DNA of 64,000 bases from positions 1 to 64,000 of the forward strand of contig NZ_JABXYJ010000008.1 of NCBI RefSeq assembly GCF_013377855.1. The letters run 5' to 3'. A program made the position numbers and the translations under genes. This DNA comes from Cognatundibacterium oligocarboniphilum (lineage in GTDB: Bacteria > Pseudomonadota > Gammaproteobacteria > Burkholderiales > Burkholderiaceae_D). The notes under the pieces are model-generated. The model made no database searches and was not told the DNA's origin. It saw nothing but the letters and a program-made list of their open reading frames with translations. Of this stretch, positions 8,265 through 64,000 are shown one piece after another (position 1 is the stretch's first letter; every line of letters begins with the position of its first letter).

Positions 8265-8273
8265 GTGGTTCTC

Positions 8274-8396
8274 CAACCAAGTTTTGCACAAAACAGAATA
8301 CCAGACTGGCGGAAACTTTCAACCATGTTTTGCACAAAACGGAGAGTTATCACGTTTGGCGTAGCTTCGGGATTCCAACCTTATTTTGCATATAGC
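8274..8396 (-). promoter_or_regulatory. Three operator-like repeats upstream of hsdM
   Basis: A direct repeat CAACCxxGTTTTGCACAAAAC occurs at 8274-8294 and 8320-8340, with a degenerate third copy at 8376-8396. Within the first two, GTTTTG-CA-CAAAAC is a perfect 6-bp inverted repeat. The first copy starts about 10 bp from the hsdM start and overlaps its ribosome binding site. This looks like a regulator-binding array for the RM operon. The regulator is not evident next to it. Confidence 0.65.
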
Positions 8397-29911: not shown

Positions 29912-30328
29912 TTAAGCTGGTGTCGCCTGCTGCTCAATGTATTGGCGAATGATGCTGATCGGAGCGCCGCCGCAAGAGGACGCGAAGTAAGAAGGCGACC
30001 ACAGCACGCCCTTGTAGTAGAAGCGTTTGGCGATGTCCGGCCTTTCTTTTCGCAGCACGCGACTGGATGCGCCTTTCAAACTATTGACCAAGGCGGACAC
30101 TGGTACTTTCGGCGGATAGCTGACCAGCAAATGCACATGGTCGCGCTCGCCGTCCATTTCGACCAGTTGCGCCTCGAAGTCGTTGCAAACCTTGGCAAAT
30201 AGTTCGCGCAGCCTGTCGATGGCCGCTGAGTCGAACACTTTGCGGCGATATTTCGTCACAAAGACCAAATGGACATGCATGTTAAAAACACAGTGACGTC
30301 CGCGCCGAATGTCGTTGTTTTCTTCCAT
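29912..30328 (-). CDS. tnpA: IS200/IS605 Y1 transposase TnpA
   Basis: HUH single-strand transposase, 138 aa from the ATG at 30328. The HUH metal site is HVH (His64, His66) in ERDHVHLLVSYPP and the catalytic tyrosine is Tyr130 in IIRQYIEQQ. Full family length, so probably active. The frame extends a few codons further upstream, but that would overlap the tnpB start; 22 bp separate the two ATGs. Confidence 0.95.
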   Translation of the reverse strand: MEENNDIRRGRHCVFNMHVHLVFVTKYRRKVFDSAAIDRLRELFAKVCNDFEAQLVEMDGERDHVHLLVSYPPKVPVSALVNSLKGASSRVLRKERPDIAKRFYYKGVLWSPSYFASSCGGAPISIIRQYIEQQATPA

Positions 30329-30350
30329 AGACCAAAATATACTATGCGAC

Positions 30351-33205: not shown

Positions 33206-33757
33206 CTATGCCCCGGTCCAGATCCGTGGCAGGCCGTTGTGTCCGATCACGGCTCCGGTGTCGATGTGGATAAAGTTGCGTTGGTAGATGCCAACGCCGC
33301 CTTGTTTCAACAGCCCGGCCAGTTTGCCCAGATAGTCGCTGGGGATGGTCTGGGTGCGAAAGTCGATCGCCCGGAACACGCCCTGTCCATCCGGCAGATG
33401 GCAGGAGTTTTGCGCTGCCTTTTCTGTGTGCTGGTTGGTTTCGCGTGTGCGTAAGCCGGATAAGGCGTCGATTCTGACATGGTGACCATACAGCGCCAGC
33501 CATGCCTGCATCCACGCCACGGTTTTGAGCAGGCGTATGTCGGGATAGCCTTGCCGGTTCGCCCTGATGTCTCTCAGCAGGTAGGCGGCAGTCAGGTAGC
33601 CAGCCTGGGTTGCAATATCAAACTGGTATTGTTCGTTGCCACGGCTCATCCAGATGACGCTGGGTTCGCGTCTGTTTTCCTGTGCCACTGCCGGCCGTCC
33701 CAGACTGGAACAGCCGATCAGCATGGCTTTCAGGAATTCCCGACGCTGCATGCTCAT
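33206..33757 (-). CDS. Tat-exported DUF882/peptidase M15-like protein
   Basis: 183 aa. Twin-arginine signal MQRREFLKAMLIGCSSLG. The domain has SGLRTRETNQHTE and FIHIDTGAV, the metal-binding pattern of YcbK-type DUF882 proteins, a branch of the D-Ala-D-Ala carboxypeptidase fold. Probably acts on the cell wall. Its ATG overlaps the dsbC-like stop (ATGA). A wall-modifying enzyme beside a disulfide isomerase fits a role in building an envelope-spanning apparatus. Confidence 0.82.
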   Translation of the reverse strand: MSMQRREFLKAMLIGCSSLGRPAVAQENRREPSVIWMSRGNEQYQFDIATQAGYLTAAYLLRDIRANRQGYPDIRLLKTVAWMQAWLALYGHHVRIDALSGLRTRETNQHTEKAAQNSCHLPDGQGVFRAIDFRTQTIPSDYLGKLAGLLKQGGVGIYQRNFIHIDTGAVIGHNGLPRIWTGA

Positions 33758-34488
33758 TTTGCTTTGACGCTGGCCAATTTTGTTTCAAGGGCTTTGGCAT
33801 CGACATAGCCAGGGATGCGCGAGCCATCGGTAAAGATGATGGCCGGTGTGCCCTGTATGCGGTAGCGTTTGCCCAATGCCTGTACTTTTTCGTCCGGGTC
33901 TTTGCAATCTGCGCTGGCGGTGGCCGGCACTTTGTTGTTGAGCATCCATTCATCCCAGGCTTTGGCGCGATCTGCCGCGCACCAGATGTCGTGCGATTTG
34001 GTTTTGGAGTCCGTGGCCAGGATGTTGAACTGGTAGGTGTAGATGGTGATGTTGTCCATTTCCTGCAGGGTATGCCGCAATTTTTTGCAGTAGCCGCAAT
34101 TCGGATCTTCGAATATGGCGATCACGCGACTGCCGTCTCCTTTGGTGAATTTGATGGCGGCATCGAGGGGCAGGGTTTTGAAGTCGATTTTGTTGATTTC
34201 GTTGAGTCGTTCCTCGGTCAGGTTTTTTCCGCTGGTCAGGTCGATCACTTTGCCTGCGATCAGGTATTTGCCTTCTTTGTCGGTATAGAGGATGTCGCTC
34301 TTGGTGCGGACTTCATAGAGGCCGCTGACCGGTCCGGCGGTGATGGTTTCTATTTGTCCCGCGCCGAGCCGCTGTTCCAGTTTCTGTATCACGGCGTTTT
34401 GTTGCTGGCTTTCGGTCGGTTTGCCCGCCGCAGCCAGGGTGCTGGCGGTCAGCAGTATCAGGGCCAGCTGGATGTGGTGTTTTTTCAT
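33754..34488 (-). CDS. dsbC: DsbC-like periplasmic disulfide isomerase
   Basis: 244 aa. Signal peptide (QLALILLTASTLAAA), N-terminal dimerisation domain, then a thioredoxin domain with the CGYC active site in FEDPNCGYCKKLRHTL and the cis-Pro loop GTPAIIFTDG. Two extra Cys (WCAADR, ADCKDP) form the usual structural disulfide. Plasmid-borne DsbC is common in conjugation regions, where it folds Cys-rich pilus or mating proteins; the Cys-rich surface protein at 51725 is a possible client. Coupled on both sides. Confidence 0.93.
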   Translation of the reverse strand: MKKHHIQLALILLTASTLAAAGKPTESQQQNAVIQKLEQRLGAGQIETITAGPVSGLYEVRTKSDILYTDKEGKYLIAGKVIDLTSGKNLTEERLNEINKIDFKTLPLDAAIKFTKGDGSRVIAIFEDPNCGYCKKLRHTLQEMDNITIYTYQFNILATDSKTKSHDIWCAADRAKAWDEWMLNNKVPATASADCKDPDEKVQALGKRYRIQGTPAIIFTDGSRIPGYVDAKALETKLASVKAK

Positions 34489-46847: not shown

Positions 46848-47968
46848 ATATTATGAATTTACGACTGATTCCTGACCCGAGCGCCATCCAGAAAAGTTTT
46901 GAACTGAATTTTGAATTCTATAATTTGCTGACTGCTTTGAATTTCATGGATGAAAGCTGGAGCAACGTCCACAAACTCAGCAAGACAACCTCGCAATTGC
47001 TAGACGGCAACATCAATTATAAGTCGTCCGTTTTTAACAGTTTAGCGCTATGCGTCGTGCCCATCATTCAATCAGAATCAGAATGGGATGACTTGTTTTC
47101 TGGTAACGCGCAGAAACTAATGGCTGGCTTCAGCCTGGCCCCCAAAATAGTCAGCGACCAGATCAGTACAGAAATACGATTCCACAATAAATTTTATCTT
47201 CAGCATTTGGTGGACACCGCCAACAACTCCCCCGCCGCCTGCATCGAGTTAGGTATCAAGTCGGAAATCGTTCAAAAGCTGCAAAACATGACGGTGGAGC
47301 AGAAAAACAACGCTCTCAAATTCAAACTGCCGCTATTTAAATGGCGCTTGAACGATTTTCCGATGTCGCAGGATGCGACTGAAGTCCAGGAAAGCGACTG
47401 GATTCACTACCTGATCCAGACCAGCCCGCACAAATTGGGCGACTTGGCGACACTGACCAACTTGGGAAAAACTTATCACTCCGAAGTCGCCTACCCCCTC
47501 GCGGAGCACCTGATCAGGTTCAATATGCGTGCCACGATCGTTTCCACCTTGATACCAAATTTACATACTGCTAAGATTCGGGATATGTATAAGCGGTTGC
47601 TGGGAACGAGTTCCAGTTGCGGAAAATTACCGGAAAGTAATGCGTGGTTTTTTTTGGTGGAACGGCGCAGAACGCATAGTTCGTTTTTTTTATTGCTGTA
47701 CCGGCTGGCGGCGCGCGCGGGCCTGGCGCACTTGCATAGTCTGATTGCGGCTTATGGCTGGTATTTGACATTTACCCATGATCCCTTACCGATTGATCGT
47801 TTGGGTACGCTGGTCAATACGGTGCAGTCAGGCTCAGGTATTGTGTACACGGCCAATTGCCGTAGCTGCGCAGGAAGTTATTTGTTATGTAATGCCGATG
47901 ATCGGAAAGAATGGTCACATACATTCCATTGCGAAGTTTGCCGGAAGAAAAGAAACGCCGCCGCGTAA
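46844..47968 (+). CDS. Single-chain FlhD-FlhC-like transcription activator
   Basis: 374 aa. Residues 213-368 follow FlhC along its length: AEHLIRFNMRATIVSTLIPN, RDMYKRLLGTSSSCGKLPES, NAWFFLVERRRTHSSFFLLL, and a zinc site Cys339/342 and Cys363/366 (CRSC ... CEVC). Residues 114-171 (HNKFYLQHLVDTANNSPAAC then IELGIKSEIVQKLQNMTVEQ) match FlhD ([37 protein letters not shown]). Residues 17-75 may be a second, diverged FlhD-like unit. FlhD and FlhC are normally separate chains forming D4C2. Coupled to the coiled-coil gene. Family identity strong for FlhC, good for FlhD, tentative for the first unit. Confidence 0.82.
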   Translation: MNIMNLRLIPDPSAIQKSFELNFEFYNLLTALNFMDESWSNVHKLSKTTSQLLDGNINYKSSVFNSLALCVVPIIQSESEWDDLFSGNAQKLMAGFSLAPKIVSDQISTEIRFHNKFYLQHLVDTANNSPAACIELGIKSEIVQKLQNMTVEQKNNALKFKLPLFKWRLNDFPMSQDATEVQESDWIHYLIQTSPHKLGDLATLTNLGKTYHSEVAYPLAEHLIRFNMRATIVSTLIPNLHTAKIRDMYKRLLGTSSSCGKLPESNAWFFLVERRRTHSSFFLLLYRLAARAGLAHLHSLIAAYGWYLTFTHDPLPIDRLGTLVNTVQSGSGIVYTANCRSCAGSYLLCNADDRKEWSHTFHCEVCRKKRNAAA

Positions 47969-50411: not shown

Positions 50412-50584
50412 CCCGGTTTCAACCACGAAAAACGGATAGCCCTTATTTTTTGATTTTTGGTTTGGTTTGCTGCTTTCTTTTGAAAATTTGACTTTTAAAA
50501 CGCGTCGGTACAATGGATTCATGGCGTCAACAAAAACGCTTAATTTCGGTTTTACGACTACTCCTTTTTTGATTGGAACTTAAT

Positions 50585-51670
50585 ATGAAAACGACTAAGG
50601 CTTTCTCTCTGAAGGCAGCTTATCTGAGCATGGCGGTGGCTACTCTGGCCTTGTCTGCCTGCGGTGGCGGCGGCAGTGGCTCTGCGACGGGCAGCGGTTC
50701 GGGTAATAATGGTGGCAATGGCGGCTCTGGCGGTTCCGGTGGCACAGGCGTGACCTGCACCGCACCACAGGTTTTGGTGAACGGTGTCTGCACCACCCCT
50801 GCCCCATCAGTCACACCCGCAAACCTGCAAACCAGTGTGCCTGCGCCGACGTATGCGGCAAGCTCGGACGAACTGGCGGCGTTCAATGAAATCAATGCGA
50901 TCCGTAAGCTGATTGGTCTGGGTTTGCTGGCACAGAATGCCTTGCTGGATAAATCGGCCAATAATCACATGAAATATGGTGTGGCAAATCCTACGTCTAA
51001 TCCGCACTTTGAAGACCCGTTGAAAGCTGGTTTCACCGGCGTATCTCCAACCGACCGGGCTGCGTTTGTAGGATATACAGGAAATGCAGGGGAAGTTCTG
51101 TCATTTGGTAACGGGCTGGATGCAGTGAAAGGATTGGTGAATACGATTTATCACCGCGATAACCTGCTGAACCAAACAACTGAGCATGTCGGCATTTCTT
51201 TTATTCCCACTGATATCGCACCAGTGGTCGATATTGAATTGGGGATAATCAAAGGCCAGCGCAATGCATCCGACTTTTTGACGACCTATCCGTTTGATGG
51301 TCAAAAAAACCTGCCATTGCAAATGGCTCCTGAGTGGCCTTCTCCGTTTGGGTTGGTCAATACCGAATATGCAACAAAAACCAGCTCACCAGTGGCCTTT
51401 TATAGCGCTTCGGGTACTTCATTGGCCGTTTCCAGCTTCACAGTCAGCCAAGGTGCAAATCTTCTGACGGGCAGAGTGCTGACCAGTGCCAACGATACCA
51501 ATGGTTTGATCGCCAAGAATGCTGCATCATGGCTCGGTTCCGCCCCGTTCCAGCCGAACACGGTATACACCGCCAGCTTTACCGGCACGGTCAATGGCGT
51601 TGCGGTCAGCAAGACATGGACATTTACCACTGGCACATCGGCGCAATTGGGTGGCGGTTCGGCACAGTAA
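50585..51670 (+). CDS. CAP/SCP-domain lipoprotein with Ig-like tail
   Basis: 361 aa. Lipoprotein signal with lipobox LSAC (LSMAVATLALSACGGGG), a Gly/Ser/Asn-rich flexible linker, then a CAP domain (DELAAFNEINAIRKLIGLGL, KSANNHMKYG, HFEDP, HVGISF) and a C-terminal SpaA/Ig-like segment (YTASFTGTVNGVAVSKTWTF). CAP proteins are secreted and often bind lipid or host surfaces. Outer-surface location inferred. GGAAC before the ATG; oriented toward the Cys-rich gene, with a shared terminator. Confidence 0.9.
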   Translation: MKTTKAFSLKAAYLSMAVATLALSACGGGGSGSATGSGSGNNGGNGGSGGSGGTGVTCTAPQVLVNGVCTTPAPSVTPANLQTSVPAPTYAASSDELAAFNEINAIRKLIGLGLLAQNALLDKSANNHMKYGVANPTSNPHFEDPLKAGFTGVSPTDRAAFVGYTGNAGEVLSFGNGLDAVKGLVNTIYHRDNLLNQTTEHVGISFIPTDIAPVVDIELGIIKGQRNASDFLTTYPFDGQKNLPLQMAPEWPSPFGLVNTEYATKTSSPVAFYSASGTSLAVSSFTVSQGANLLTGRVLTSANDTNGLIAKNAASWLGSAPFQPNTVYTASFTGTVNGVAVSKTWTFTTGTSAQLGGGSAQ

Positions 51671-51694
51671 ATATTGTGTCTGTTAGCAGGGAAT

Positions 51695-51723
51695 AAAAAA
51701 GCCGGTTTTCACCGGCTTTTTTT
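51695..51723. terminator. Bidirectional terminator
   Basis: AAAAAGCCGGT-TTTC-ACCGGCTTTTT between the convergent genes ending at 51670 and 51725; A and T runs on both sides allow termination in both directions. Confidence 0.9.
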
Positions 51724-51724
51724 G

Positions 51725-53617
51725 TTAGTACAAGACGCACCGATAGGGGACGCCATTTGAACACATGGGCGCTCCTGGCGCGGAGTCAATCAAGACAGAG
51801 GTGCTGCCACATTGCTGAACGATATTATTGAAGCAATCATTGTTACAGCCGTTATACACGGTTTTGGAAGTTGGTGCACATGACAGGGCTTTATAACATT
51901 GGCGCTGCGCTGTGGTTGTATTAGCAGCTAAGGATGCGCTGCTCCATCCTGTATTATCACAACAAGCAGGGAAATCAGTCGAGTTAGTGTCACAGCAAAT
52001 TGGATAATTGCTCGCGCCATTTGGACAAGCAGTGGTGGTTACAGTCGGTTTAACGCACAGCGAAGTATCCCAATTCCCATAGCTCACAGTGCCATCACAA
52101 TTCTGCGTGACTGACCTGTTTGCCGTTCCTGTTTGCAATGGCGGGCAAGGGCCGCTTTGCATCGAGGTCTGCGGTGTACAGGCCACCGGCACTGGCTGAC
52201 AGCTACTCAAATCCCAGGCGCTGACCGAACTCGTTCCTGAAGGGCAACTGACTGTTGTCGTCTGGTACGCAAGTCCGGTATATCCAGCCGGACATGGGCC
52301 ACTCAGCACCGAACTCTGCGGCGTACAGGCCGCGCCAACCGGCTTGCAACTGCTCATATCCCAGGCGCTGGTCGAACTTGATCCTGAAGGGCAACTGACT
52401 GTTGTCGTCTGGTACGCAAGTCCGGTATATCCAGCCGGACATGGGCCACTCAGCACCGTACTCTGCGGCGTACAGGCCGCGCCAACCGGCTTGCAACTGC
52501 TCATATCCCAGGCGCTGGTCGAACTTGATCCTGAAGGGCAACTGACTGTTGTCGTCTGGTACGCAAGTCCGGTATATCCAGCCGGACATGGGCCACTCAG
52601 CACCGAACTCTGCGGCGTACAGGCCGCGCCAACCGGCTTGCAACTGCTCATATCCCAGGCGCTGGTCGAACTTGATCCTGAAGGGCAACTGACTGTTGTC
52701 GTCTGGTACGCCAGTCCGGTATATCCGGAAGGGCAAGGGCCTGCCAGCGTGCTAGTAGAGGGTGTACAGGTGGCGACGGCGGTACAGCCACTTCTGTCCG
52801 TGGAGGTGGACGGTGTGCAGCTTGCGCCGGAATAACTGGTGGTGACAAAGGCTGTCCCGGTATATCCCGCGCCGCAACTGGTGGCACTGGTGGTCGAAGA
52901 AGGACAAACCACAGGCGGCGCAGAACAGCCGCTATTATCCACCGTCACCGATTTCACGCAGGTTGGCGGAGTAAAGGTGATATTTTGAACCTGATTGCCA
53001 ATTCCGCCGTTTGGACAGGTAGCGGTGACGGAGTAGTTTGAGGGGCAGACTGGGATGGCCACGCAAACAGTACCATTCCAGCTTGATCCGGAAGCGCAAC
53101 CGCAAGTCGATCCGGTCAAAACCTGATTTGAAGGACAGACGATCGGAATACATGAAGGATTTCCATTGTTGTCGTGCGTGACTTGTTGACCGACCGGGCA
53201 AACCGGATCATCCAAAACGCAGTGGGCGATGTTGGTTCCCTGTTTTGTCCAGTGCGAACCAGCTGGACAGCCCTGCAATGTAGGGACGGACATACACCCT
53301 ACCGCTGTAGGCGTCAGCTGACAATTGGTGGCATTGACGTCAACCTGCGATCCAATTCTTTGGCAATTAGAAGTATCGAAGGTCAGACCATCGGTAATTT
53401 TTCCGGACGGGCAACTGAGGGTACGCATAGGAAACTTGGTGCCGGTGTATCCAGAGTCACAAGGGACGCCGGCCAGCGGAATCGAGTACGGGACACAGGT
53501 TGAAGACGTGTTGTTGTTCGTCGTTTGCGCATGCAGTAAATTGCTGAAACTGATCAGCAACAATGCTAAGAGCAAGGTAAAACCTTGCTGCATCCAATCC
53601 ATTTTTAAATATTTCAT
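51725..53617 (-). CDS. Secreted Cys-rich tandem-repeat protein
   Basis: 630 aa from the ATG at 53617. Signal peptide (FTLLLALLLISFSNLLHAQ). The whole mature chain is built of Cys-containing units (CPxGxxx, SCPSG, GPCPAGYTG). Residues about 295-470 hold 49-residue repeats (CTPQSSVLSGPCPAGYTGLA, then YQTTTVSCPSG and AWDMSSCKPVG) that are nearly identical. A distinct C-terminal domain follows (CPNGASNYPICC to PYRCVLY). Probably an extracellular or pilus-associated adhesin rich in disulfides, which would need a DsbC-type isomerase. Family not recognised. Confidence 0.88.
   Translation of the reverse strand: MKYLKMDWMQQGFTLLLALLLISFSNLLHAQTTNNNTSSTCVPYSIPLAGVPCDSGYTGTKFPMRTLSCPSGKITDGLTFDTSNCQRIGSQVDVNATNCQLTPTAVGCMSVPTLQGCPAGSHWTKQGTNIAHCVLDDPVCPVGQQVTHDNNGNPSCIPIVCPSNQVLTGSTCGCASGSSWNGTVCVAIPVCPSNYSVTATCPNGGIGNQVQNITFTPPTCVKSVTVDNSGCSAPPVVCPSSTTSATSCGAGYTGTAFVTTSYSGASCTPSTSTDRSGCTAVATCTPSTSTLAGPCPSGYTGLAYQTTTVSCPSGSSSTSAWDMSSCKPVGAACTPQSSVLSGPCPAGYTGLAYQTTTVSCPSGSSSTSAWDMSSCKPVGAACTPQSTVLSGPCPAGYTGLAYQTTTVSCPSGSSSTSAWDMSSCKPVGAACTPQSSVLSGPCPAGYTGLAYQTTTVSCPSGTSSVSAWDLSSCQPVPVACTPQTSMQSGPCPPLQTGTANRSVTQNCDGTVSYGNWDTSLCVKPTVTTTACPNGASNYPICCDTNSTDFPACCDNTGWSSASLAANTTTAQRQCYKALSCAPTSKTVYNGCNNDCFNNIVQQCGSTSVLIDSAPGAPMCSNGVPYRCVLY
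52205..52740 (-). repeat. 147-bp in-frame tandem repeats
   Basis: The sequence CTGAAGGGCAACTGACTG begins at 52237, 52384, 52531 and 52678, an exact 147-bp period. Units differ by a few bases only (GAACTC versus GTACTC near 52310 and 52457), so the array expanded recently and can change length by slippage or recombination without shifting the frame. Confidence 0.95.
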
Positions 53618-53677
53618 ATTTTCTCCTGCACCCAAGAATGAGGTTCCACGTAAAATCGCCCTACTTTGAATTGTGCT

Positions 53678-53729
53678 TAAAAAAAGGGCACGTAAATCAG
53701 CGATAACGACGCCGATTTACATGCCCTTT
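53678..53729 (-). terminator. Terminator after the Ig-like repeat gene
   Basis: AAAGGGCA-TGTAAATC-GGCG pairs with CGC-TGATTTAC-GTGCCCTTT across an ATAACGA loop, with a T-run on the minus strand. Located 19 bp after the stop at 53748. Confidence 0.85.
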
Positions 53730-53747
53730 CAGTTTGAGTTTGCTGTT

Positions 53748-55382
53748 TTATTGCGCGGTGACAGCAATCGTGAGGTTTTTGCCTGTGGCATCCGTCACGA
53801 CCACATTGGCCGTCCCTGCTGCAACACCATTGATTGTCAGGGTACTGCCAAGTATGGATGTGGTCGAAACTGCGGTATTGCTGGATACGGCCGTATAGGG
53901 TGCAGTTCCACCAGCAACAGAATAGGTGTACGTCGAACCGACCTTTGCCACAATGGATGACGGTGCGGTGGTGTACAGCGCAACAACCTGCGTTGAGGGG
54001 TTGGTGACGCTGACATTGACAGAAATGTTTGCGCCCAGGGTATCGCTGATTGCGACTGTTGCTGTTCCTACCCCAATTCCCTTGATCGACAGAACCTGAC
54101 CATTCAATGAAGCTACCGCGACATTCGGGTTACTGGAATTCGCGCTGTATGGGCCTGTACCACCAGCCACGTTGAAGGTGGAAGTAGTCGCTGTCTGCAA
54201 AACCACATTCGACGGAGCCGTGCTATACAGTGCGACAGAGGTCGATGTTGGCGACGCAGGCACGGTGACAGAGAAGGATGTCGTTGCACCTACAGCATCG
54301 CGCAAAGAAATATTTGCCGAACCAGAATTGAGCGCAGTAACCGTCAATGCGCCGTTTTGCATATTCAGACCCGTCACAGATTGGTTGCTCGATACCGCGG
54401 TGTAAGGTGGCGTGCCGCCAGCGATGGTATATGTTGCTGAAGAAGATTGATTGATGACGACTGAACCGGGTGCCGTGGTATAGAACGGAATCGACACTTG
54501 GCCGGACACCACACTGACTGACACAGAGGCCAAACCACCGACGGCATCACGGATGGTCACCATCCCGAAGCCTACCGACTTGCCCGTAACCGTAAAGTTG
54601 TTTCCGGAATTACCAATAGAAATAATGTCTGGTGCCGAGACATTGACAGTGTAAGGAGGTGTGCCGCCGCCGATCTGATACACAGGAATGACGCCATTGG
54701 TCGAGAGACTGATATAGCCCGGCGCGGTCGTGTAGAGCGCGACGACTGGAGATGCCGGCGCGGTCACAACGGCATTTAGGTTGACTGACGCACCTTTAGC
54801 ATCAAAAACGATAATCTGAGCGCCGCCCGCGGCCAGACTGTTCAGATTGACGGAATTGCCGTCTGCGGAAACACTTGCTGAAACCACGCCAACGTTACTG
54901 CTGACCACCGTGTACGGCTTTGCACCGCCAGAAATCGTGTAAGAATTTGAAGCGCCCACAGCGGTACTGACAGAGGCCGGTGCAAGCAGTGTCAGGCTGG
55001 TCGTAGCACCGACCGTCACCTTGATATCGACTTCCGCCCCCGCACTATCCTTCACCGCCACCACCACAGCACCAGCTGCCTTGCCTGTAATAGTGAAACT
55101 GTTGCCATTCATGCTGACTGCTGCAATCGATGAATCTGAGGATGTCACAGAATAACTGGTAAATTTGGAACCACCGCCACCGCCGCCTACTTGGAACGAC
55201 TGGGTATCACCTACATTCATTGAAAGCGTTGCACTGGATGTTGTGTACAAGGCTTGCCCTGCATTTTGAACCAGAGAGTCCGTGGCACCGCCGCCGCCAC
55301 AGCCAGCGAGTCCGAGCGCAAGGCTTACTGCGACCACAGAGGCCGCTAATTGACTGACAAAATGATTTTTCTTGAGACGCAT
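53748..55382 (-). CDS. Ig-like (BIG2-type) repeat lipoprotein
   Basis: 544 aa from the ATG at 55382. Lipobox LAGC after a signal helix (SVVAVSLALGLAGCGGGG). Then about six repeats of 80-90 residues, each with the pattern ALYTTAPxxVxL... YTIAGGTPPYTAVSSN and ITGxxxGxAxVxVxDAxG, i.e. tandem bacterial Ig-like beta sandwiches. A rod-like surface protein is likely. It lies between the Cys-rich gene and pilV, all leftward, so it may belong to the pilus locus as an adhesin or stalk. Confidence 0.9.
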   Translation of the reverse strand: MRLKKNHFVSQLAASVVAVSLALGLAGCGGGGATDSLVQNAGQALYTTSSATLSMNVGDTQSFQVGGGGGGSKFTSYSVTSSDSSIAAVSMNGNSFTITGKAAGAVVVAVKDSAGAEVDIKVTVGATTSLTLLAPASVSTAVGASNSYTISGGAKPYTVVSSNVGVVSASVSADGNSVNLNSLAAGGAQIIVFDAKGASVNLNAVVTAPASPVVALYTTAPGYISLSTNGVIPVYQIGGGTPPYTVNVSAPDIISIGNSGNNFTVTGKSVGFGMVTIRDAVGGLASVSVSVVSGQVSIPFYTTAPGSVVINQSSSATYTIAGGTPPYTAVSSNQSVTGLNMQNGALTVTALNSGSANISLRDAVGATTSFSVTVPASPTSTSVALYSTAPSNVVLQTATTSTFNVAGGTGPYSANSSNPNVAVASLNGQVLSIKGIGVGTATVAISDTLGANISVNVSVTNPSTQVVALYTTAPSSIVAKVGSTYTYSVAGGTAPYTAVSSNTAVSTTSILGSTLTINGVAAGTANVVVTDATGKNLTIAVTAQ

Positions 55383-55513
55383 GTTGGTATCCTGTATTTG
55401 AATTGAAATTGAATCAAACCACCAAGTAAAGATACAACGTGAGAAAGGCAACAGAAATGTGAAAGGTGCGCCAAAATTTGCCCCATATCTATTCTCACAA
55501 ATCGGGGCGACTG

Positions 55514-55552
55514 AAAAAAAAAGGTTCTTTGCGTCCAGGACGACAAAGAACC
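55514..55552 (-). terminator. Terminator of the pil operon
   Basis: GGTTCTTTG (55523-55531) pairs with CAAAGAACC (55544-55552) around a 12-base loop; a run of nine T follows on the minus strand. Located 21 bp after the pilV stop. Confidence 0.88.
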
Positions 55553-55572
55553 CAAAAGAGCGACAGGGATAT

Positions 55573-57027
55573 TCAGTAGCTACATTCCACAGTCATGACT
55601 GCCGACAAACCATAATTATTGCCAGAAACTGTACCGCCACCATCCGCGGCTGATTTCTGCAGCCTGAGCAGGACAGTCCAGCTTGAACCATTATTTTGTG
55701 CGGCAACATAAGTCGCCTGATACGGTGGCGTGATAGAAACATCCACCGCAGACTGGGTAAGAACCAGCGAGTAATTTGGAACGCCACCCAGATCACAGGT
55801 CGGTTTCTGCACGATGGAACCATCCTGTACAGCAATGTGATTCCCCGTTTGGACATTCGCATTCAGCAGACTGGTCAGCCGAATATACTGGCCATTTTTA
55901 CAAATCAATTGTTCATTGGTGGTGAGGCTGGTGGCTGTCCGGCCAGCTGGAGAACAAGCATTCCCCAGGCTGGCAAAATTCGATAAGGAGTACCAGAAGC
56001 TACCATTACAAACGAAAGCGATCCCATTGGCATCGGTACCAATCTGATTACCAACCGAGCAGGCCGAGCCAGCACTAATTCCGGTCACCGCATCCCCTAC
56101 CCGCATCCATTGACTGCCATTACAAATGACCAGACCAGATCCGTTCGCATTGGTTTTTAGTTTCCCGTTATCGCCAGCAACACAGGCAGAGCCGGCCGCC
56201 GCGGGACCGGGCAACATCAGACTGCCATTGATGACTGCATTGCCATTGATCACCGTGTTATTCAGCGTGGCAGTACCGGCAGAAGATAAGTCGTTGATGT
56301 TGAGAATGTTATTACCATTCGCATCCATCGGGCCGGCCAGTTTTCTGGAACCATCCAGCTTATAGAACTGACTTAGCAAACTGCCAATGCCTGAATTGTC
56401 ACCGATACGAATACCAACCGCTCCTTCCACTGTGCTATACAGCGCAGCCGGATAGCTGTAATTGCTCGCGTAGCCTGTCATCGCACCACCTGAGCCGGCC
56501 ATGGATTGAGAACCGTCATTGCCAATGGTGGACACAACTTGGGACAGAACATCATTTCGGATCGAACCGGCTGAATCAGTGTACGGAGTGGACGAGTGTG
56601 ATAGTCCGTTCACCGTGCATGACGGATTAGGCGGGCAAGGACCACCGGTGATTTTAAATTCGTGAACGAACTGCAAACCAAGAGGACTGATCAGGCCAAA
56701 GCCTGAATCAAGAAACCCGGCAGTTCTGAGTTCCTGAGTTGTCGGCTTCAGTGGATTCACAAAGCCTGCCACACCGCTACCAGCCTGTATAGCGGCATTA
56801 TTCGTCAGGTAATAGCGATTTAGTCCAGTCTGGAGCGCCACCATATATTGACCGGTCGCAGTCGCCATCGATTTTGTGATGGATTGACTCAACTGCGAGA
56901 ATTGCGTTGAGAGTAAATAGGTCGCCAGCAACAGAGCCAAACCCAAATCAATCAGAAAATAGCCGCGCTGATTTTTAGAGCGCGCGCGCATGCTGGACAA
57001 TTTGAAATTGCGAATTTGAGCGTTCAT
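55573..57027 (-). CDS. pilV: Type IVb pilus tip adhesin / minor pilin PilV
   Basis: 484 aa. Prepilin-like N-terminus with cleavage expected at Gly22-Tyr23 (NQRGYFLIDLGLALLLATYL; Asp rather than Glu at +5). The middle is PilV-like (DANGNNILNINDLSSAGTAT) with three short repeats of CNGSxW plus CSVGNQIGTDANG. The variable C-terminus ends VECSY. In R64-type pili PilV sits at the tip and binds recipient LPS. No shufflon repeats or adjacent rci recombinase are visible, so the C-terminus appears fixed. Overlaps the ATPase gene. Confidence 0.85.
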   Translation of the reverse strand: MNAQIRNFKLSSMRARSKNQRGYFLIDLGLALLLATYLLSTQFSQLSQSITKSMATATGQYMVALQTGLNRYYLTNNAAIQAGSGVAGFVNPLKPTTQELRTAGFLDSGFGLISPLGLQFVHEFKITGGPCPPNPSCTVNGLSHSSTPYTDSAGSIRNDVLSQVVSTIGNDGSQSMAGSGGAMTGYASNYSYPAALYSTVEGAVGIRIGDNSGIGSLLSQFYKLDGSRKLAGPMDANGNNILNINDLSSAGTATLNNTVINGNAVINGSLMLPGPAAAGSACVAGDNGKLKTNANGSGLVICNGSQWMRVGDAVTGISAGSACSVGNQIGTDANGIAFVCNGSFWYSLSNFASLGNACSPAGRTATSLTTNEQLICKNGQYIRLTSLLNANVQTGNHIAVQDGSIVQKPTCDLGGVPNYSLVLTQSAVDVSITPPYQATYVAAQNNGSSWTVLLRLQKSAADGGGTVSGNNYGLSAVMTVECSY

Positions 57028-57977
57028 GATTTGGAGAATTTCATTGCGGCAGTGGATTTAAAGGGTAAAGGTAGTCCTTCCCGAATACGCTTTCGGGTTT
57101 CTTCCAGACAGGGGTAGGCGTATATCGTAAATTGACCATGCTCAAATTTATGACTTGTAATTCCGAAAAGAGATTGCGCGAGCATGTTACGCACCAGCCC
57201 GATATCCACACCCCCTTTGACACACCAGGAAATCAAGCGATCGACGCAGGCGTCCGGCGTGGAGGCGTGCGTAGTGGTGAAAATAGTGAAGCCATTGATT
57301 GCCGCATTGACCAGATCAAAAGCATTGGTGTCAGACCGTACTTCACTGAACAGCAGCAAGGGTTTGATCCCGACCGGATAACTGCGCAAAGCCATTTTCA
57401 GGCCCAGCGTCGCACCAATCTCACTCACATCAATTTCATCCACATACCCATTGGTACCAACCACAAAAGTACCATCGTCACCAATTGGACTCTCTAATGG
57501 ATCACCGATCACCACTAAATGACCACCGTACTGCTTGAGCCGTTCACGCGTGGCTGCATGGGCAAAATAGCTTTTACCGGTACCAGGGTTTCCGATGCAA
57601 ATAACCAGCCCACCCTGAATATTCAATACACTGCTAAGAACGAGATCCTTGACGTCCTTATTCGACGTCAGACGATCCAGATCCGGCGTGTTGATACTCA
57701 TAGACCGACCCGCAAGATAGCCGGGAAACCGGGCTAATCGAATCTTCAGATTCAACTGGCCAGATTGAAACTGAACAGAAAAATCCAATCCTGCATGCTG
57801 CTTGATGGCATCAATAAAAAGCTGCACAAAATTTTGCATCCTGGGCGTCATCAATGCAAAATTGAGCCATTTCTTTCCAACCATTCCGACGCAGGAATGC
57901 ATATTGTCAGGGTAAATGCGCCAGTCACTAAAGTGACTGGCTGCTTCGATCATTTCAGAATCGACAGAAACAATCAT
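57024..57977 (-). CDS. pilT: PilT-like secretion/retraction ATPase of the type IVb pilus
   Basis: 317 aa, GspE/PilT superfamily. Walker A GNPGTGKSYFAHA, Asp box near VVIGDPLESPIG, Walker B-like PLLLFSEVRSD, His box TTHASTPDACVDR. The domain lacks the N-terminal zinc-ribbon part of PilQ, consistent with a retraction-type motor. It lies where R64 has pilT (a lytic transglycosylase) and pilU (prepilin peptidase), neither of which is present here; a PilT-like ATPase at this place recalls PAPI-1-type pili (from memory). Confidence 0.85.
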   Translation of the reverse strand: MIVSVDSEMIEAASHFSDWRIYPDNMHSCVGMVGKKWLNFALMTPRMQNFVQLFIDAIKQHAGLDFSVQFQSGQLNLKIRLARFPGYLAGRSMSINTPDLDRLTSNKDVKDLVLSSVLNIQGGLVICIGNPGTGKSYFAHAATRERLKQYGGHLVVIGDPLESPIGDDGTFVVGTNGYVDEIDVSEIGATLGLKMALRSYPVGIKPLLLFSEVRSDTNAFDLVNAAINGFTIFTTTHASTPDACVDRLISWCVKGGVDIGLVRNMLAQSLFGITSHKFEHGQFTIYAYPCLEETRKRIREGLPLPFKSTAAMKFSKS

Positions 57978-57981: not shown

Positions 57982-58527
57982 TTACTGCACTAACATCGTG
58001 ATCGAGTTGTTGTCTCCAGAGCATTTGATTTGTGACGGATCGGGATTGGTACCCGGCGCTTTCACCACATTGGTGCCGACTGACAGTTTCGTGACAGTTT
58101 TGGACATCGCCGTCACGAATGGCACGCAGGAAGAATCCGGCAACTGTGTAACAACATAAGAGACTGAATCACCAGCAGTGTTGACGGTGCCGGAAGAGAC
58201 CGTCAACGAACCGCCGCCCAGATTGGTAGTGACGGAGCCGGCATTGTCGTTCAGCGAATTCAGGTTCTTGAAAAAGCTGCCAGAATCCAGTTTGGCATTG
58301 GTCACTGCGGAATAGTTATTCGCATAGGAAGACTTCACCTGACCCATGAGCGTTGTCAGATCGCCTGTCAACTGATTGGTTTGCGTGGCTGATGTATTGG
58401 CTGAAAATTTGGAAAAGATCCCTACAATCAGAATTGCACCGATCACCAAAACCAATCCAAATTCAACCATTGTAAAACCTGCCTGCTTCATTTTCTTACC
58501 TGCTGCCATCATGTATTGCTGTTTCAT
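57982..58527 (-). CDS. pilS: Type IVb major prepilin PilS
   Basis: 181 aa. Short leader with cleavage at Gly17-Phe18 (KQAGFTMVEFGLVLVIGAIL), Glu at +5 of the mature pilin, and a globular part with two Cys (DSSCVPF ... QIKCSGD) forming the C-terminal disulfide loop. Strong AGGGGAA ribosome binding site, fitting high expression. Processing needs a prepilin peptidase not found in the window. Confidence 0.93.
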   Translation of the reverse strand: MKQQYMMAAGKKMKQAGFTMVEFGLVLVIGAILIVGIFSKFSANTSATQTNQLTGDLTTLMGQVKSSYANNYSAVTNAKLDSGSFFKNLNSLNDNAGSVTTNLGGGSLTVSSGTVNTAGDSVSYVVTQLPDSSCVPFVTAMSKTVTKLSVGTNVVKAPGTNPDPSQIKCSGDNNSITMLVQ

Positions 58528-58591: not shown

Positions 58592-59680
58592 TTACATGTT
58601 CTTCAGTTCGACTAATGTCTTGAACTGATCGATCAAATCCCCTGTCCCACCGTAAATAAACAACATCAAGGCAATGCAGAGAATCAGCATTGAGAACCGG
58701 AGCGTCATCGCTCTTTTATTTGCTTCTACCGGTGCCCATTCCATAATTAACTGCGCCACATCAGGCAGCATTTCATCCATTTCCTTGTAGTCGGAGATGT
58801 CCAGCATCCGGAAGTACATTTTCTTGGCCACGATACCGGTATTGAAAATTTCCGCCTTCGAGTTGGGTCTGATCAGCAAATTATTTTGGATTTCATCGAT
58901 TTGCCAGTTCAGCCATCTCAACTTGCTCTTGAAGCGGATAGCGCTAATGGAGTCATTCAAAGACATAATCTGGCTGCCTCCGATCGAGGTCAACGCACCG
59001 ACATTCACGACAAAACCGGCACCGACAAAATCCCGGTACAACTGGTAAGGCAGGACGTGATCATCCAGCCACTTGCGGAATTTTCCGGTGTAGTTATCCA
59101 TAGACCAATAAACGAGAACAACTGTGGAAATCTCAACAGACACCACCAGCCACCACCAGGCTTTGACGACATGAGAGATACCAAACAGCGTAGCGCCTAG
59201 CGTTCCAAGCTGGTTGATATCGATATTCGTTTTCATGACCTCTTCTAACTTGGGTAAGACCATGAATGCCTCAATTCCGAGAAAGACATGGAAAATCAAG
59301 AACATGAAGAACGAGGCGACCAGCGTCGAGATGACACCCTTCTTGGCCTTATCCATCGCGATAATGTTCCGTCCCAGATAGCCGAGCGCATTAGTGAGAT
59401 CACCAGACTTTTCTGCTGCCGCCAAAAATGCCAGATCCTGTGGCGGAACCGTGCCGGTTATCGCTTCAGAAAACCGCCCAAAATGCACGATCTGTTTCAG
59501 CCAGTGCGCGCACATTTTGCCGATGGTATCTTTCGCATAGCGCTGGGCATAACGTTCAATGACGGTCACAATCGCAACACCCGGCATGGATTTCATCGTT
59601 TGAGACAAATCCTGATAGAACTCACCGCGCAGGGATTTGAATTCCCATACTGTCATTTTGAAATTGATATCGAATGCCAT
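58592..59680 (-). CDS. pilR: Pilus inner-membrane platform protein PilR (GspF/PilC-type)
   Basis: 362 aa. Two GspF-type cytoplasmic helical domains (AAAEKSGDLTNALGYLGRNI near residue 90 and the second near residue 280) and three TM regions (TLVASFFMFLIFHVFLGIEA, AWWWLVVSVEISTVVLVYW, MLILCIALMLFIYGGTG). It forms the membrane platform on which PilQ drives pilin assembly. Starts 2 bp after the pilQ stop. Confidence 0.92.
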   Translation of the reverse strand: MAFDINFKMTVWEFKSLRGEFYQDLSQTMKSMPGVAIVTVIERYAQRYAKDTIGKMCAHWLKQIVHFGRFSEAITGTVPPQDLAFLAAAEKSGDLTNALGYLGRNIIAMDKAKKGVISTLVASFFMFLIFHVFLGIEAFMVLPKLEEVMKTNIDINQLGTLGATLFGISHVVKAWWWLVVSVEISTVVLVYWSMDNYTGKFRKWLDDHVLPYQLYRDFVGAGFVVNVGALTSIGGSQIMSLNDSISAIRFKSKLRWLNWQIDEIQNNLLIRPNSKAEIFNTGIVAKKMYFRMLDISDYKEMDEMLPDVAQLIMEWAPVEANKRAMTLRFSMLILCIALMLFIYGGTGDLIDQFKTLVELKNM

Positions 59681-59682: not shown

Positions 59683-61440
59683 TCAGGCTCCGCGTTCACG
59701 CTGATACTGCAAGAAATCGCCAAACTTTTCTTCCACAGACTTAGGGTCGAAAGTCCCTTGAGCAACGTGATACATAGCAACCTCAATCACCGTCTTACCT
59801 GTTGTGTCAGGCTCATCGAAGCGCGCTGTCTGCAACTGCTTTACATAGGTTTTGAGTTCGAGATTTTTTCCTTCGCGGATCATGTGCAGCATGACCGCAT
59901 CCAATTCCACCATTTCGGCCACGACCATCCTGCCCTTGATGCCATTAAGTTCAGGCAGTCCTTCTCGTTTACAGTTATCGCAACCCGCCGCGTTCTTTGC
60001 GTAGATTTTCGAAATATCCAATTGGAACAAGGACTCAATGAGTTGCAGGTATTCCTTTGGGTGGACGTCCGACGCGGGGAGCTTGCAACAAGGACATAAC
60101 TTGGGAACCAGCGCCTGATACATCAACAGGTTCAAGAATCCAGGTGTTGCGATGATGTCACGTGGAATGCCGATTTCATCTGACACTAAGCGCATCGTTA
60201 CCATGTCCAGAGCGGAAGGCGCATGGACTGTAGAGAATGCGCGGTGCCCTGATTCCGCAATGTCCCTAAACAATCCGCCACTTTCCCGATCGCGAATCTC
60301 ACCAATCAACACAGCGTCCGGGTCCATGCGTTTTAATTGCCGCTTGACCGCGATGAAGGGGTCAGAAGTTTGGTCACTCAGATTGCGGGAGACTGAAAAC
60401 TGGTCAACGCCCGGCATCAGGTATTCCACCGGATCTTCTACAGTGTATTTAGAGAATGTTTCAGGCAGCATGCACATGATTGTTTGCATGGTGGTCGATT
60501 TGCCCGAGCCAACCACACCAGCCAACACAACACCGCCACCTAACCTGCGAATGACCCGCGAAATGATGTCGATTTGGCCGGGTAGGTATCCCAATTCTTC
60601 CAGTGATCGAATCGAAGTGGCTTCATCCTGCGCCAACATCCGCAAAACCACCTTGGAACCTTTTGCTGTCTGGTTGCTGGCCCAGCGGAACAGGAATTTC
60701 TTTTTGTCCAATTCAAACGGAATTTGACATTGCTGTGGCTTGTTGGAGTTGTAGGTGTTTTCGCTTGGGGATTTACCTCTGACATTGAAGAGGTAAGCTA
60801 CCGTATCCATGAGATCGGCTGTCGGCAGGTAAAATTTGCGGGGTGACGTCAGCTGGCCTTCGATACGGTAGAGAACACGCGAGTTTGGCTGAAAGTCGTT
60901 CAATTCAAAATGGATATCTGAGGCAGTATTGGCAATAGCAAACGCCGCAATACTCTCGAACATGTGCGACAGCGCCGTTTCCTGATCGCGCGTCATCATG
61001 CCCGATTTCGCTGTCTTCTTTGCTTTTGAGACCTTGTTGACTGCATCCCTGGCCAACTCAGCCATCACGGACTGGTTAGTGGCAATGTATAAGGGATTTG
61101 CGGCAGAAAATCCTTTGAGAACGAGCATTCGTTCTACTTCACGTGCCAAATCAGAATTGGCTTCAGATCGCTGACAAATGATTGAGAACTTTAACCCGGT
61201 TCCATTGACCTTGACCGGGCACAGCTTAAATCTGACCGATGGAGACATATCGATCAGTTCATACAGTTTTTCCTCGAAATCAGGTAATTCGTCGGAATGC
61301 TCATAATCGATCGGTGTGATCGATAGAGAGCTGTTGCGTGCCGGATTGGTCATTGGGGTTCCCGGAGCATTAGGATGCAGGAATACATTGCTGGCTGGTG
61401 CCGGTTTTTTCTCTAGCATTCTTTTGAACTGTGTGAGCAT
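59683..61440 (-). CDS. pilQ: Pilus assembly ATPase PilQ (GspE-type)
   Basis: 585 aa. Walker A GVVGSGKSTTMQT near residue 312, Asp box YTVEDPVEYLM, Walker B VLIGEIRDRESG, His box FSTVHAPSALD, then a tetracysteine zinc site (LCPCC ... CDNC) as in extension-type ATPases. Matches R64 PilQ, the motor for thin-pilus extension. Part of the tightly packed pilO-P-Q-R-S run. Confidence 0.95.
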   Translation of the reverse strand: MLTQFKRMLEKKPAPASNVFLHPNAPGTPMTNPARNSSLSITPIDYEHSDELPDFEEKLYELIDMSPSVRFKLCPVKVNGTGLKFSIICQRSEANSDLAREVERMLVLKGFSAANPLYIATNQSVMAELARDAVNKVSKAKKTAKSGMMTRDQETALSHMFESIAAFAIANTASDIHFELNDFQPNSRVLYRIEGQLTSPRKFYLPTADLMDTVAYLFNVRGKSPSENTYNSNKPQQCQIPFELDKKKFLFRWASNQTAKGSKVVLRMLAQDEATSIRSLEELGYLPGQIDIISRVIRRLGGGVVLAGVVGSGKSTTMQTIMCMLPETFSKYTVEDPVEYLMPGVDQFSVSRNLSDQTSDPFIAVKRQLKRMDPDAVLIGEIRDRESGGLFRDIAESGHRAFSTVHAPSALDMVTMRLVSDEIGIPRDIIATPGFLNLLMYQALVPKLCPCCKLPASDVHPKEYLQLIESLFQLDISKIYAKNAAGCDNCKREGLPELNGIKGRMVVAEMVELDAVMLHMIREGKNLELKTYVKQLQTARFDEPDTTGKTVIEVAMYHVAQGTFDPKSVEEKFGDFLQYQRERGA

Positions 61441-61940: not shown

Positions 61941-63229
61941 TAATTAGGTTTTGAAAAATTTTGACCTTGCACTTCCACTTTGACCATCGACTGCTTGATG
62001 CCGTATTCCGCATTTTTGTTCACGTTGTAGGCAATCTTTTCGACAATGGCCGTCTTCGGAAACTTCTGAAATATTTCCGTCATCCGCAATGGGCCATTGG
62101 CACTCCATGGCGCAGACTTCAATGGCGGGGCAGTCAGTTGAGACTCATCAAAGGTGGCATTAAGCGCGATGGTCTTGTAGTCACCAATGCCAGGCGCACC
62201 CACGGCGAACACTTTTTGCAGAACGCTCTGAAATGATATATTTGAGGCTGCGATCGGTTCTGCCGCCGCCAGAGAATCACCCATCGGCAGGAATGGCAAA
62301 CTACTGAATTCTTTCAAGGCGCTGATCGTTTGCAGATCATTTTTGAAAATCACGTTTTTGAACTTGAATGGTTCCGCAGCCTCTAAAAAGGATTTGTTAT
62401 TGGCTTCACTGTTGCTACCCTTGCGCAGTGAAATATCGCAGGTCACCAATTTCTGACCTGAAATCCCACACTCAAATTTATTAACATCCCATCCACCAAT
62501 GGACGATGGAATGCTTAAAATCAGGCGATTCAATGCCGGCACATCAGCTGCCAGCAATACAAAATCTTTCTTCTTTTGTGCAAGAGCTTCGTCATAAATC
62601 TGTTGTGCCGATTTTTGCTTCGACGCCATTTCCTCATTGAGTTTTTTCTGACGGTACTTTGCAAATTGTTGATAACCAAAATCACCGGCTAAATACAGGG
62701 CTACTGCTGCCAACACCAAAGTCAACGGATTAACGTAGTTACTGCCAACCTTCTTTAGTTCAGCATATTCCGTGGCAGCCTTAGCCAATTCGTGAATGGT
62801 GTATTCGATGGAATCGATACCAACCACATCGCCATAAATATTGAAGCCGGAATCGCCGCATGAGTGCTGGAATGCTTCGATATGCGCTGCTATGTCTTTG
62901 GGTTCCAGCAGAGAATCAAAACCTTTTACCGGACGACCCTGAAATACACCACAAAGCAAGATAGATTCAGACCCCGGCACAGTCAATACCGCCAGCGCGC
63001 CACCTTCGGGATGCGCTGATGCAAAAGCAATCGCCGCTGAAAATACGGGTTTGTTTTTAGACGTAACCTTGTCTTCGATTGGTAAAATGCCATAGGCAAA
63101 CGAAGCAACGGAGTTCCAATACCACTTCCCCTTTTTAGCGCGGACCTCTTTGGCGATCGATCCGGAACTGATCATGACTGACCAGTCAAGGCCAGTCGCC
63201 AGCGATTTGTCATCAACTGTAAAAATCAT
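61940..63229 (-). CDS. pilO: Type IVb pilus protein PilO
   Basis: 429 aa. Cytoplasmic N-terminal half (WYWNSVASFAYGILPIEDKV), a single TM helix near residue 175 (LTLVLAAVALYLAGDFGYQQ), a coiled coil (EEMASKQKSAQQIYDEALAQ), and a periplasmic domain. Same layout as R64 PilO, the bitopic protein of the pilus inner-membrane complex. ATG overlaps the pilN stop (ATGA). Confidence 0.9.
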   Translation of the reverse strand: MIFTVDDKSLATGLDWSVMISSGSIAKEVRAKKGKWYWNSVASFAYGILPIEDKVTSKNKPVFSAAIAFASAHPEGGALAVLTVPGSESILLCGVFQGRPVKGFDSLLEPKDIAAHIEAFQHSCGDSGFNIYGDVVGIDSIEYTIHELAKAATEYAELKKVGSNYVNPLTLVLAAVALYLAGDFGYQQFAKYRQKKLNEEMASKQKSAQQIYDEALAQKKKDFVLLAADVPALNRLILSIPSSIGGWDVNKFECGISGQKLVTCDISLRKGSNSEANNKSFLEAAEPFKFKNVIFKNDLQTISALKEFSSLPFLPMGDSLAAAEPIAASNISFQSVLQKVFAVGAPGIGDYKTIALNATFDESQLTAPPLKSAPWSANGPLRMTEIFQKFPKTAIVEKIAYNVNKNAEYGIKQSMVKVEVQGQNFSKPN

Positions 63230-64000
63230 TTGACCCTACCATTGTCGGAAATGGCGGCTGATACGAGTACCAGCGTGATGACATTTTCTTCTGAGGCAAT
63301 GGACGAACCACCCAAGATGCCCGGAACGCCGTCGCCCAGGGTGCGCTGGTCATACTGGTGCGTTTTCTTTTCGAAACCAGCCAGAATCAGGGTAGAACCA
63401 TTTCTGATAGAAACTTCCTGCAGGGTGAGGCCATTTGCCGATTTATTCGGGAGCTGCACCGACTGCATCGTGCTGCCGGAACCAGAGGTGAAGACGACCA
63501 GATTTTGCAAAGCACTCTGATCGATAGCGAATGTCAGATCAACGTTATCCGAAGTAGAAATCTTCGGATACAACATCATTTTCAGACCGACCTGATCCTG
63601 TGCCGTTGAAATTCCTGGCGTGCCACCGCCGCCTGCGAGTGATGCTGTGCCGGGTGTGGTCGAACTGACGTAGCTGAAAGTGTTGGTAATGTTGTAGTAA
63701 ATTGCTTTGCGGTTTTTAGCGCGCAACGGTACTTCCTGTGAAGTAAAGACTTTTCCGTAGTCTTTCAATGCCTTTACCACCACGGCAGATCCGGTTGCTT
63801 TTCCTGACAATACGTTCACGCCAATACTGGCAGCATTGGTATTGGTCAGGGTTGCCGCGGGACTGGACGTGACATTCAAATTCGGCAGATTCTGCAATGC
63901 TGCGTTTGCGATGGCTGTGATATCGAGACTGTTTTCAACTGAATTATTGGTCGTGACCTGAACAGTCTGGACTTTGAAAGTCACTTCCCTAGAAGCGTTT
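63226..64000 (-). CDS. pilN: Outer-membrane secretin PilN, 3' part
   Basis: The frame is open to the window edge, so the 5' part is missing; 258 residues are visible. The secretin core is recognisable: NLTIA-like strands, AAVVKALKDYGKVFTSQEVP, QDQVGLKMMLYPKISTSDNV, and near the C-terminus GSTLILAGFEKKTHQYDQRT then LGDGVPGILGGSS. PilN is the R64-type lipoprotein secretin through which the thin pilus passes. The apparent GTG start near 63984 is internal sequence, not the true start. Confidence 0.92.
   Translation of the reverse strand, partial: NASREVTFKVQTVQVTTNNSVENSLDITAIANAALQNLPNLNVTSSPAATLTNTNAASIGVNVLSGKATGSAVVVKALKDYGKVFTSQEVPLRAKNRKAIYYNITNTFSYVSSTTPGTASLAGGGGTPGISTAQDQVGLKMMLYPKISTSDNVDLTFAIDQSALQNLVVFTSGSGSTMQSVQLPNKSANGLTLQEVSIRNGSTLILAGFEKKTHQYDQRTLGDGVPGILGGSSIASEENVITLVLVSAAISDNGRVK

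Follow-up and report, generated by a model that had tools for sequence, protein, structure and literature searches.

We identified, at the tail of a T4b pilus operon, a gene for a Cys-rich secreted protein with recently copied in-frame repeats, and propose, with about even confidence, that it encodes the secreted stalk-and-tip protein of a plasmid's conjugative T4b pilus, similar to TcpF and CofJ. The proposal draws on what was observed by computation: the repeats, an anchor motif shared with relatives, a recurrent place in pilus operons, a varying number of modules, and tips that differ between paralogs. The whole stretch of DNA analysed (64,000 bp, hereafter the window) comprises bases 1-64000 of a 112,002-base contig, in a genome of 3.67 Mb and 34 contigs; Table 1 lists its features.

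Table 1. Features of the Cys-rich gene and its surroundings, in window positions.
Feature	Position	Strand	Basis
Cys-rich secreted protein gene	51725..53617	-	open frame from ATG, 630 aa, internal stops 0
Sec-type signal peptide, residues 1-30, ends LLHA then QTT	53528..53617	-	by eye
Module 1 (4 Cys), N-terminal of anchor domain	53363..53497	-	profile match, E 4.6e-15
Anchor domain, residues 99-156, motif CPAGSHWTKQGTNIAHC	53150..53323	-	alignments A1, A3; genome matches
Modules 2 and 3, diverged	52784..53047 (52925-53047, 52784-52906)	-	module profile
Module 4	52640..52768	-	module profile
Modules 5, 6, 7	52199..52621	-	module profile
Module 8, diverged	52055..52180	-	module profile
C-terminal tip region, residues 531-630, opens with CPNGASNYPICC	51728..52027	-	tip differs in relatives
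147-bp tandem array	52168..52726	-	three copies 97-99% identical, one 82-84%
Ig-like protein gene, lipobox-like LGLAGC	53748..55382	-	weak Big_2, T2SS-T3SS_pil_N (Pfam); start chosen 55382
pilV-like minor pilin gene, 484 aa	55573..57027	-	42 plasmid records match, some annotated PilV
Conserved PilV C-terminal domain, residues 400-484, proposed dock	55576..55830	-	iterated profile
Second T2SSE-type ATPase, between pilS and pilV	57024..57977	-	Pfam; NCBIfam below cut-off
pilS major pilin	57982..58527	-	Pfam PilS
pilR (T2SSF)	58592..59680	-	Pfam
pilQ assembly ATPase (T2SSE)	59683..61440	-	Pfam
Secretin gene	63226..64000, continues to 64974 in contig	-	Pfam Secretin
Convergent CAP-domain lipoprotein gene	50573..51670	+	Pfam CAP, E 4.2e-6
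DsbC-type disulfide isomerase	33754..34488	-	same contig, possible folding aid

The 147-bp array and the build of the protein

Tandem Repeats Finder gave the array a score of 997, with a period of 147, 3.8 copies, 95% matches and no indels. Only two further arrays occur in the window, with scores of 52 and 53. Together with the open reading frame, this confirms the in-frame array of exact 147-bp period claimed in the original prediction. Its further claim, that four starts show almost no divergence, holds for three of them: the units starting at 52289, 52436, and 52583 share 97.3-99.3% identity (1-4 of 147 bases differ), whereas the fourth, at 52142, is a looser copy, sharing 81.6-83.7% identity with the other three. 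For comparison, 147-bp blocks outside the array are 24-41% identical to the units. Each pair of the three close copies differs by 0-1 synonymous and 1-2 non-synonymous codon changes (too few for a test of selection), and the copies, being near-identical, are therefore recent. Since the unit is 49 codons long, its gain or loss alters the length of the protein and not its frame, and the phase variation that had been suggested for this gene is not supported.

The mature protein contains 54 Cys (an even number). The core of the prediction, recently copied in-frame repeats in a secreted Cys-rich protein of the pilV operon, stands; “next to pilV” was right as to the operon tail, but one Ig-like gene lies between the two. 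By eye, the protein has a Sec-type start and no prepilin signal (for the slot genes described below a home-made rule was used instead); the prepilin is a different protein, encoded by pilV. A profile of 21 modules marks eight 4-Cys modules (E 1.2e-16 to 3.8e-7): modules 4-7 are close to each other, and modules 1, 2, 3, and 8 are diverged. The anchor domain, of about 58 residues, has one module before it and seven after, and the tip (the last 100 residues) is again Cys-rich, with a build unlike that of the modules. The family had not been recognised from the sequence alone, and Pfam, NCBIfam, and PHROGs likewise gave none that reached cut-off for this protein.

We modeled a single module from 12 sequences (mean pLDDT 86.7, three strands), and the 4-Cys module is predicted to be a compact domain. 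The structure prediction of one unit that had been called for thus gave a domain, but no significant fold match in PDB or BFVD (the best viral row is H6BJ76, E 0.037). The top Foldseek row in PDB was 8oek (ADGRB2 HormR-GAIN), with TM 0.71 over the query, E 1.4, and rmsd 1.4 over 41 columns. VIA-align gave the HormR rows (8oek, and 4dlo, which is HormR by title) Z scores of 2.8 and 2.7, and four unrelated chains scored higher (Z 3.0-4.1). With these Z scores below those of unrelated chains, and an E of 1.4, the module, which has no Pfam match, shows a fold resemblance to the HormR domain of adhesion GPCRs, not membership; the likeness is probably a common small-domain arrangement. Three Pfam families were matched at E <=1 by any of the 21 modules, and neither thrombospondin type 1 nor HRM was among them. 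The best E values in PDB profile searches were 0.46 for the module alignment, 1.4 for the anchor, and 1 for the PilV domain. A single-sequence fold of the whole protein was unusable (mean pLDDT 39.4).

The conjugative pilus operon and the slot behind pilV

The Cys-rich gene is plasmid-borne and adjoins the operon of a DNA-transfer pilus. Also on the contig are genes for VirB8, TrbI, CagX, a VirB4-type protein, a T2SSE ATPase, a coupling protein, a ParA-type protein, and PRTRC system protein D (NCBIfam); the two contig ends do not overlap, and so do not show it to be circular. The T4b pil genes are ordered secretin, pilQ, pilR, pilS, second T2SSE ATPase, and pilV (the secretin scores 27.8 bits for its in-window part, at a cut-off of 27.5, and 25.5 bits for the whole gene). 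Downstream of pilV come the Ig-like lipoprotein gene and then the Cys-rich gene, which is thus the second after the minor pilin gene, and the CAP gene converges from 50573. The DsbC on the contig fits an exported protein rich in Cys (54 residues), although DsbC genes are frequent on conjugative elements.

Several other features of these plasmids were observed. Many Burkholderiales plasmids have a gene for a CAP-domain lipoprotein close to the pilV slot, and the CAP lipoprotein of the window has a weak match, far under cut-off, to the divisome lipoprotein DalA. ATPase genes are also found between pilS and the pilV position in C. gilardii (L088) and Rhodoferax (L037); to our knowledge R64 has no second T2SSE-type ATPase, and the one found here may drive retraction. 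Elsewhere the window contains a TnpB-family RNA-guided endonuclease gene (30309-31559), type I restriction-modification genes (1366-8291; best NCBIfam matches HsdR and HsdM, below curated cut-offs), and a gene for an FlhC-like regulator (46844-47968); several Cupriavidus plasmids likewise carry FlhC-family genes close to their pil operons.

A search with the pilV product gave matches in 42 plasmid records, some of which carry the annotation PilV tip adhesin; the pilV neighborhoods of 24 of these records were examined. Between pilV and the often convergent CAP gene (the slot) we found genes for secreted proteins of varied build, named by eye: the stalk is poly-Pro in C. necator pHG1 (L086), C. 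taiwanensis (L085), and C. gilardii (L040) and collagen-like in genome G325 (L072), and the Variovorax proteins (L089, L091, and L092) have low-complexity Asn/Ala stretches. The window gene looks like one of several exchangeable stalk-and-tip proteins at this slot. The motif C..[GP]..[WY].{6,11}[HYQ]C, which was written after the sequences were seen, occurs in 14 of 20 Cys-rich or slot proteins (close paralogs included) versus 1 of 549 other ORFs, and that single ORF (L029) is itself an anchor-profile match; this anchor motif is a candidate for a minor-pilin-binding segment. In Paraburkholderia phytofirmans pBPHYT01 (L035:7182-7940), the ORF behind pilV repeats the PilV sequence CQSGVWTAAG and then has a different tail, and is perhaps a silent PilV tip cassette. 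In two genomes, G398 and G416 (L075 and L077), several pilV-like prepilin genes stand side by side and might serve as a reserve of alternative minor pilins. On inspection by eye, modules seemed to be fused to PilV in G416, but the profile gave an E of 0.09 and the genome is absent from the four that match the module profile; we do not claim such a fusion.

We also compared the presence of a slot gene with that of the PilV C-terminal domain, as defined by a profile iterated from the 96 C-terminal residues of the window PilV, which accepted 18 of 32 pilV loci. A slot gene (a signal-peptide gene starting <=300 bp downstream of pilV) is present in 14 of the 18 loci with the domain versus 1 of the 14 without it (Fisher p=8e-5, a post hoc test on loci that share ancestry, uncorrected for relatedness), and the rule fires in 6 of 640 shuffled stretches. 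Both the profile length and the distance limit were changed after sight of a first result: that version (last 170 residues, 1300-bp limit) split the loci 20/9/2/1, with p=1 and no contrast; its profile, which accepted 29 of 32 loci, had drifted into Cys/Gly/Trp repeats common to most PilV, and its slot rule fired in 25 of 320 shuffles. The one exception without the domain, L072, has a domain E of 2.5e-3, just outside acceptance. The domain occurs with no slot gene within 300 bp in L033, L038, L071, and L091; L091 has a signal-peptide gene at +1096, and the gap downstream of pilV in L033 contains no secreted ORF by the slot rule. In the window the gene that meets the rule is the Ig-like lipoprotein gene, not the Cys-rich gene, and without the window row the counts are 13 of 17 versus 1 of 14. 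The test drew on 24 of the 42 plasmid records and on 9 of 38 genomes, the other 29 genomes being mostly weaker matches. Rows were dropped for L083 (the pilV region of L039, with pilV split) and for L076 and L078, in which an intact PilV could not be recognised; L085, where pilV is split, was represented by its second piece, and G398 and G416 by their last pilV only. PilV proteins outside the domain group end in differing tails, as R64-type PilV do. In PDB, the domain profile matched no CofB or TcpB chain, and an alignment of whole PilV matched only pilins, in the N-terminal part.

Relatives with varying module numbers and tips

The Cys-rich protein has matches in 3 of 98 relative genomes (its own included) and in 1 of 72,556 plasmid records. 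With the anchor profile, matches at E <=0.01 were obtained in 14 of 392 family genomes, six of them at 1.5e-5 or better (G000, G019, G375, G198, G152, and G293), and at 1e-4 in 1 of 399 genomes in the order sample (its own); the module profile matches 4 of the 392 family genomes at 1e-5. Eight genomes with anchor matches at E 0.0027-0.01, two of them with stops, were taken as chance. Viral contigs gave no relative of the Cys-rich protein, of alignment A4, or of PilV; a search of genome contigs gave two loci, one on a contig already in the set; and no near-identical plasmid DNA was found. The family is rare among the sequences searched.

The relatives share the anchor motif C..G..W...HC and carry between zero and eight modules. 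There are eight modules in the window gene; four each in G019 and G375 (downstream copy scored); one each in the Janthinobacterium plasmid and a Xanthobacteraceae MAG (L031, a name that may reflect binning), the latter beside a Pro-Thr stalk; four and two in contig-end fragments of G016; and none in the anchor-bearing proteins of G198, G152, and G293 or in a shorter Janthinobacterium gene. Constant copy number, which the original prediction had named as evidence against itself, is thus not seen across species (eight modules here versus 4, 4, 1, 1, and 0 elsewhere), one genome being compared per species. Among the genes compared, near-identical units are found only in the window gene. Tips also differ: the two tandem genes of G375 (L026) share 90% DNA identity over 1196 columns, and their proteins have 304 of 325 aligned columns identical as far as a CGCANGGNDYP motif, and beyond it 20 of 77, which at the level of sequence is a pattern of kept stalk and changed tip. 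A DsbC gene is located about 1.6 kb downstream of this pair.

The family gene follows pilV on the Janthinobacterium plasmid (L005), in G375 (in two tandem copies), and in L031. No T4b pil operon was seen near the family gene in G019, G016, G198, G152, or G293 (stretches of 4.7-20 kb, mostly by eye). Among these, G019 has a MobA/MobL relaxase gene on the same contig; the family gene of G198 is near two T2SSE ATPase genes, which by eye look like chromosomal pilT/pilU, and its domain-bearing pilV is on another contig, without a slot gene. A CAP gene neighbors the family gene at six of nine loci (window, L005, G019, G016, G198, and L031), a count made with the second G016 fragment left out and the neighbors of L029 not scanned; in L005 it stands beyond a tandem array, and in L026 and L028 no CAP gene was found among the part of the neighboring ORFs scanned. 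The array in L005 (13080-15797 of pJAB4160), between the Cys-rich gene and the CAP gene, has 21 copies of 130 bp and a higher-order period of 390 bp; the 130-bp unit is not a whole number of codons, and the ORFs annotated there look spurious. In G152 (L028:7162-9957) the gene for a short anchor-motif protein (9514-9957) is beside RES-domain and transglutaminase-like genes, a setting unlike the pilus operons. Both module genes of G016 (L120:6922-7449 and L010:17953-18724) end at a contig edge; perhaps the repeats broke the assembly there.

Proposed role and alternative readings

The closest parallels are TcpF of V. cholerae (TCP) and CofJ of ETEC (CFA/III). TcpF binds the minor pilin TcpB and CofJ binds CofB via an N-terminal segment with a key aromatic residue, which binds the minor pilin trimer; the minor pilin offers an H-type-lectin-like C-terminal dock, and the globular parts of TcpF and CofJ differ from each other while the principle of N-terminal docking is shared (PMC9565799). 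The Cys-rich protein resembles both in being encoded in a T4b pilus operon with a minor pilin beside it, in its Sec signal, and in being presumably soluble; unlike them, its family is found on conjugative elements or elsewhere, and is disulfide-rich, with repeat stalks and differing tips. A phmmer search of the Cys-rich protein against PDB chains at E <=1 returned only AlfA, and neither TcpF nor CofJ (if the PDB copy includes both). The likeness to the secreted proteins of T4b pili would therefore be one in way of working, not proven membership.

Minor pilins provide a second comparison. The PilV C-termini of R64 and PAPI-1 recognise recipient LPS (PMC10516633, PMC5297154), and the PilV adhesins of TP114 use LPS receptors (PMC10654706). 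The system described here shares with these PilV the pilus type and a variable C-terminal recognition segment, and differs in that its variable tip belongs to another protein, which is secreted with a signal peptide of its own. Unlike a shufflon or variable-C-terminus PilV, the PilV of the window keeps a conserved C-terminal domain, and only three imperfect pairs of inverted repeats (14-17 nt) were found at 51600-57600. The pairing of a conserved PilV end with a secreted partner that varies suggests that the tip can be detached. The Ig-like gene recalls in kind the RSP of IncHI plasmid R27, an Ig-like extracellular protein needed for liquid mating (PMC6764697); RSP is large and T4SS-exported, whereas the Cys-rich protein is built of Cys modules and encoded in a T4b pilus operon.

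We infer that the Cys-rich protein would be exported by Sec, form many disulfides, and use a short anchor region towards its N terminus to dock on PilV, at the conserved C-terminal domain, and that the pilus would then carry it outward. The row of 4-Cys modules would form a stalk, presumably stiff, lengthened or shortened by whole 147-bp units, and the variable C-terminal tip would attach to a structure on a cell surface, most likely the recipient's; by taking part in mating in this way the protein perhaps helps the pilus choose its partner. Since the setting is a conjugative pilus, partner recognition is a likelier context for the gene than antigenic variation against a host.

Other readings of the same observations were weighed. 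An unlikely one is that the protein is a surface or released adhesin (for biofilm, matrix, or host surface), co-expressed with the pilus and never carried by it, with the CAP lipoprotein as its envelope partner. In G019, G016, and G198 a Cys-rich or anchor gene adjoins a CAP gene with no T4b pil operon in the stretch, and the anchor proteins of G152 and G293 also occur without such an operon, so proteins of this kind can live apart from a pilus; against this reading are the place after pilV in the window, L005, L026, and L031, and the PilV C-terminal domain, which tracks the slot gene (14 of 18 versus 1 of 14). We give very little credence to an envelope or surface-exclusion factor that would mask the donor, or stand in the way of redundant mating or of phages specific to the pilus: the gene does adjoin mating genes and its tip is variable, but Pfam, NCBIfam, and PHROGs gave no match to a known family, and a build of stalk and tip would suit reach over masking.

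The array itself could have arisen through slippage or unequal crossing-over without having any selected role, or its copy number could be an assembly compromise, with copies collapsed or expanded; we judge this improbable. That, among the genes compared, near-identical units are found only in the window gene would fit such an origin, as would an assembly of 34 contigs and the two G016 module genes that stop at contig ends; repeats often make assemblers stop. However, the three close copies are distinguished by 1-4 substitutions, and modules occur in five other loci, several in rows of four, so that the multi-module build is not new.

Conjugative T4b pili may come in two designs, which we put forward tentatively, as possible and still somewhat doubtful: one with the variable tip in PilV (R64-like), and one in which PilV has a conserved dock for a separate, detachable stalk-and-tip protein, whose gene occupies an exchangeable slot next to that of a CAP lipoprotein. 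In the second design, range and reach could be adjusted through exchange of the slot gene or through gain of stalk modules, each of 49 residues. Among the literature matches listed, in a search that covered few subscription journals, no paper dealt with secreted proteins beside a conjugative pilV, and what is known of partner choice through T4b pili comes chiefly from PilV shufflons and PAPI-1. On Burkholderiales plasmids, including pHG1 of Cupriavidus necator H16, a slot of detachable modular tips would be a second way to set partner range; it would explain a set of genes now unannotated or called “hypothetical”, and would link partner range to the export principle that TcpF and CofJ represent in two gut pathogens.
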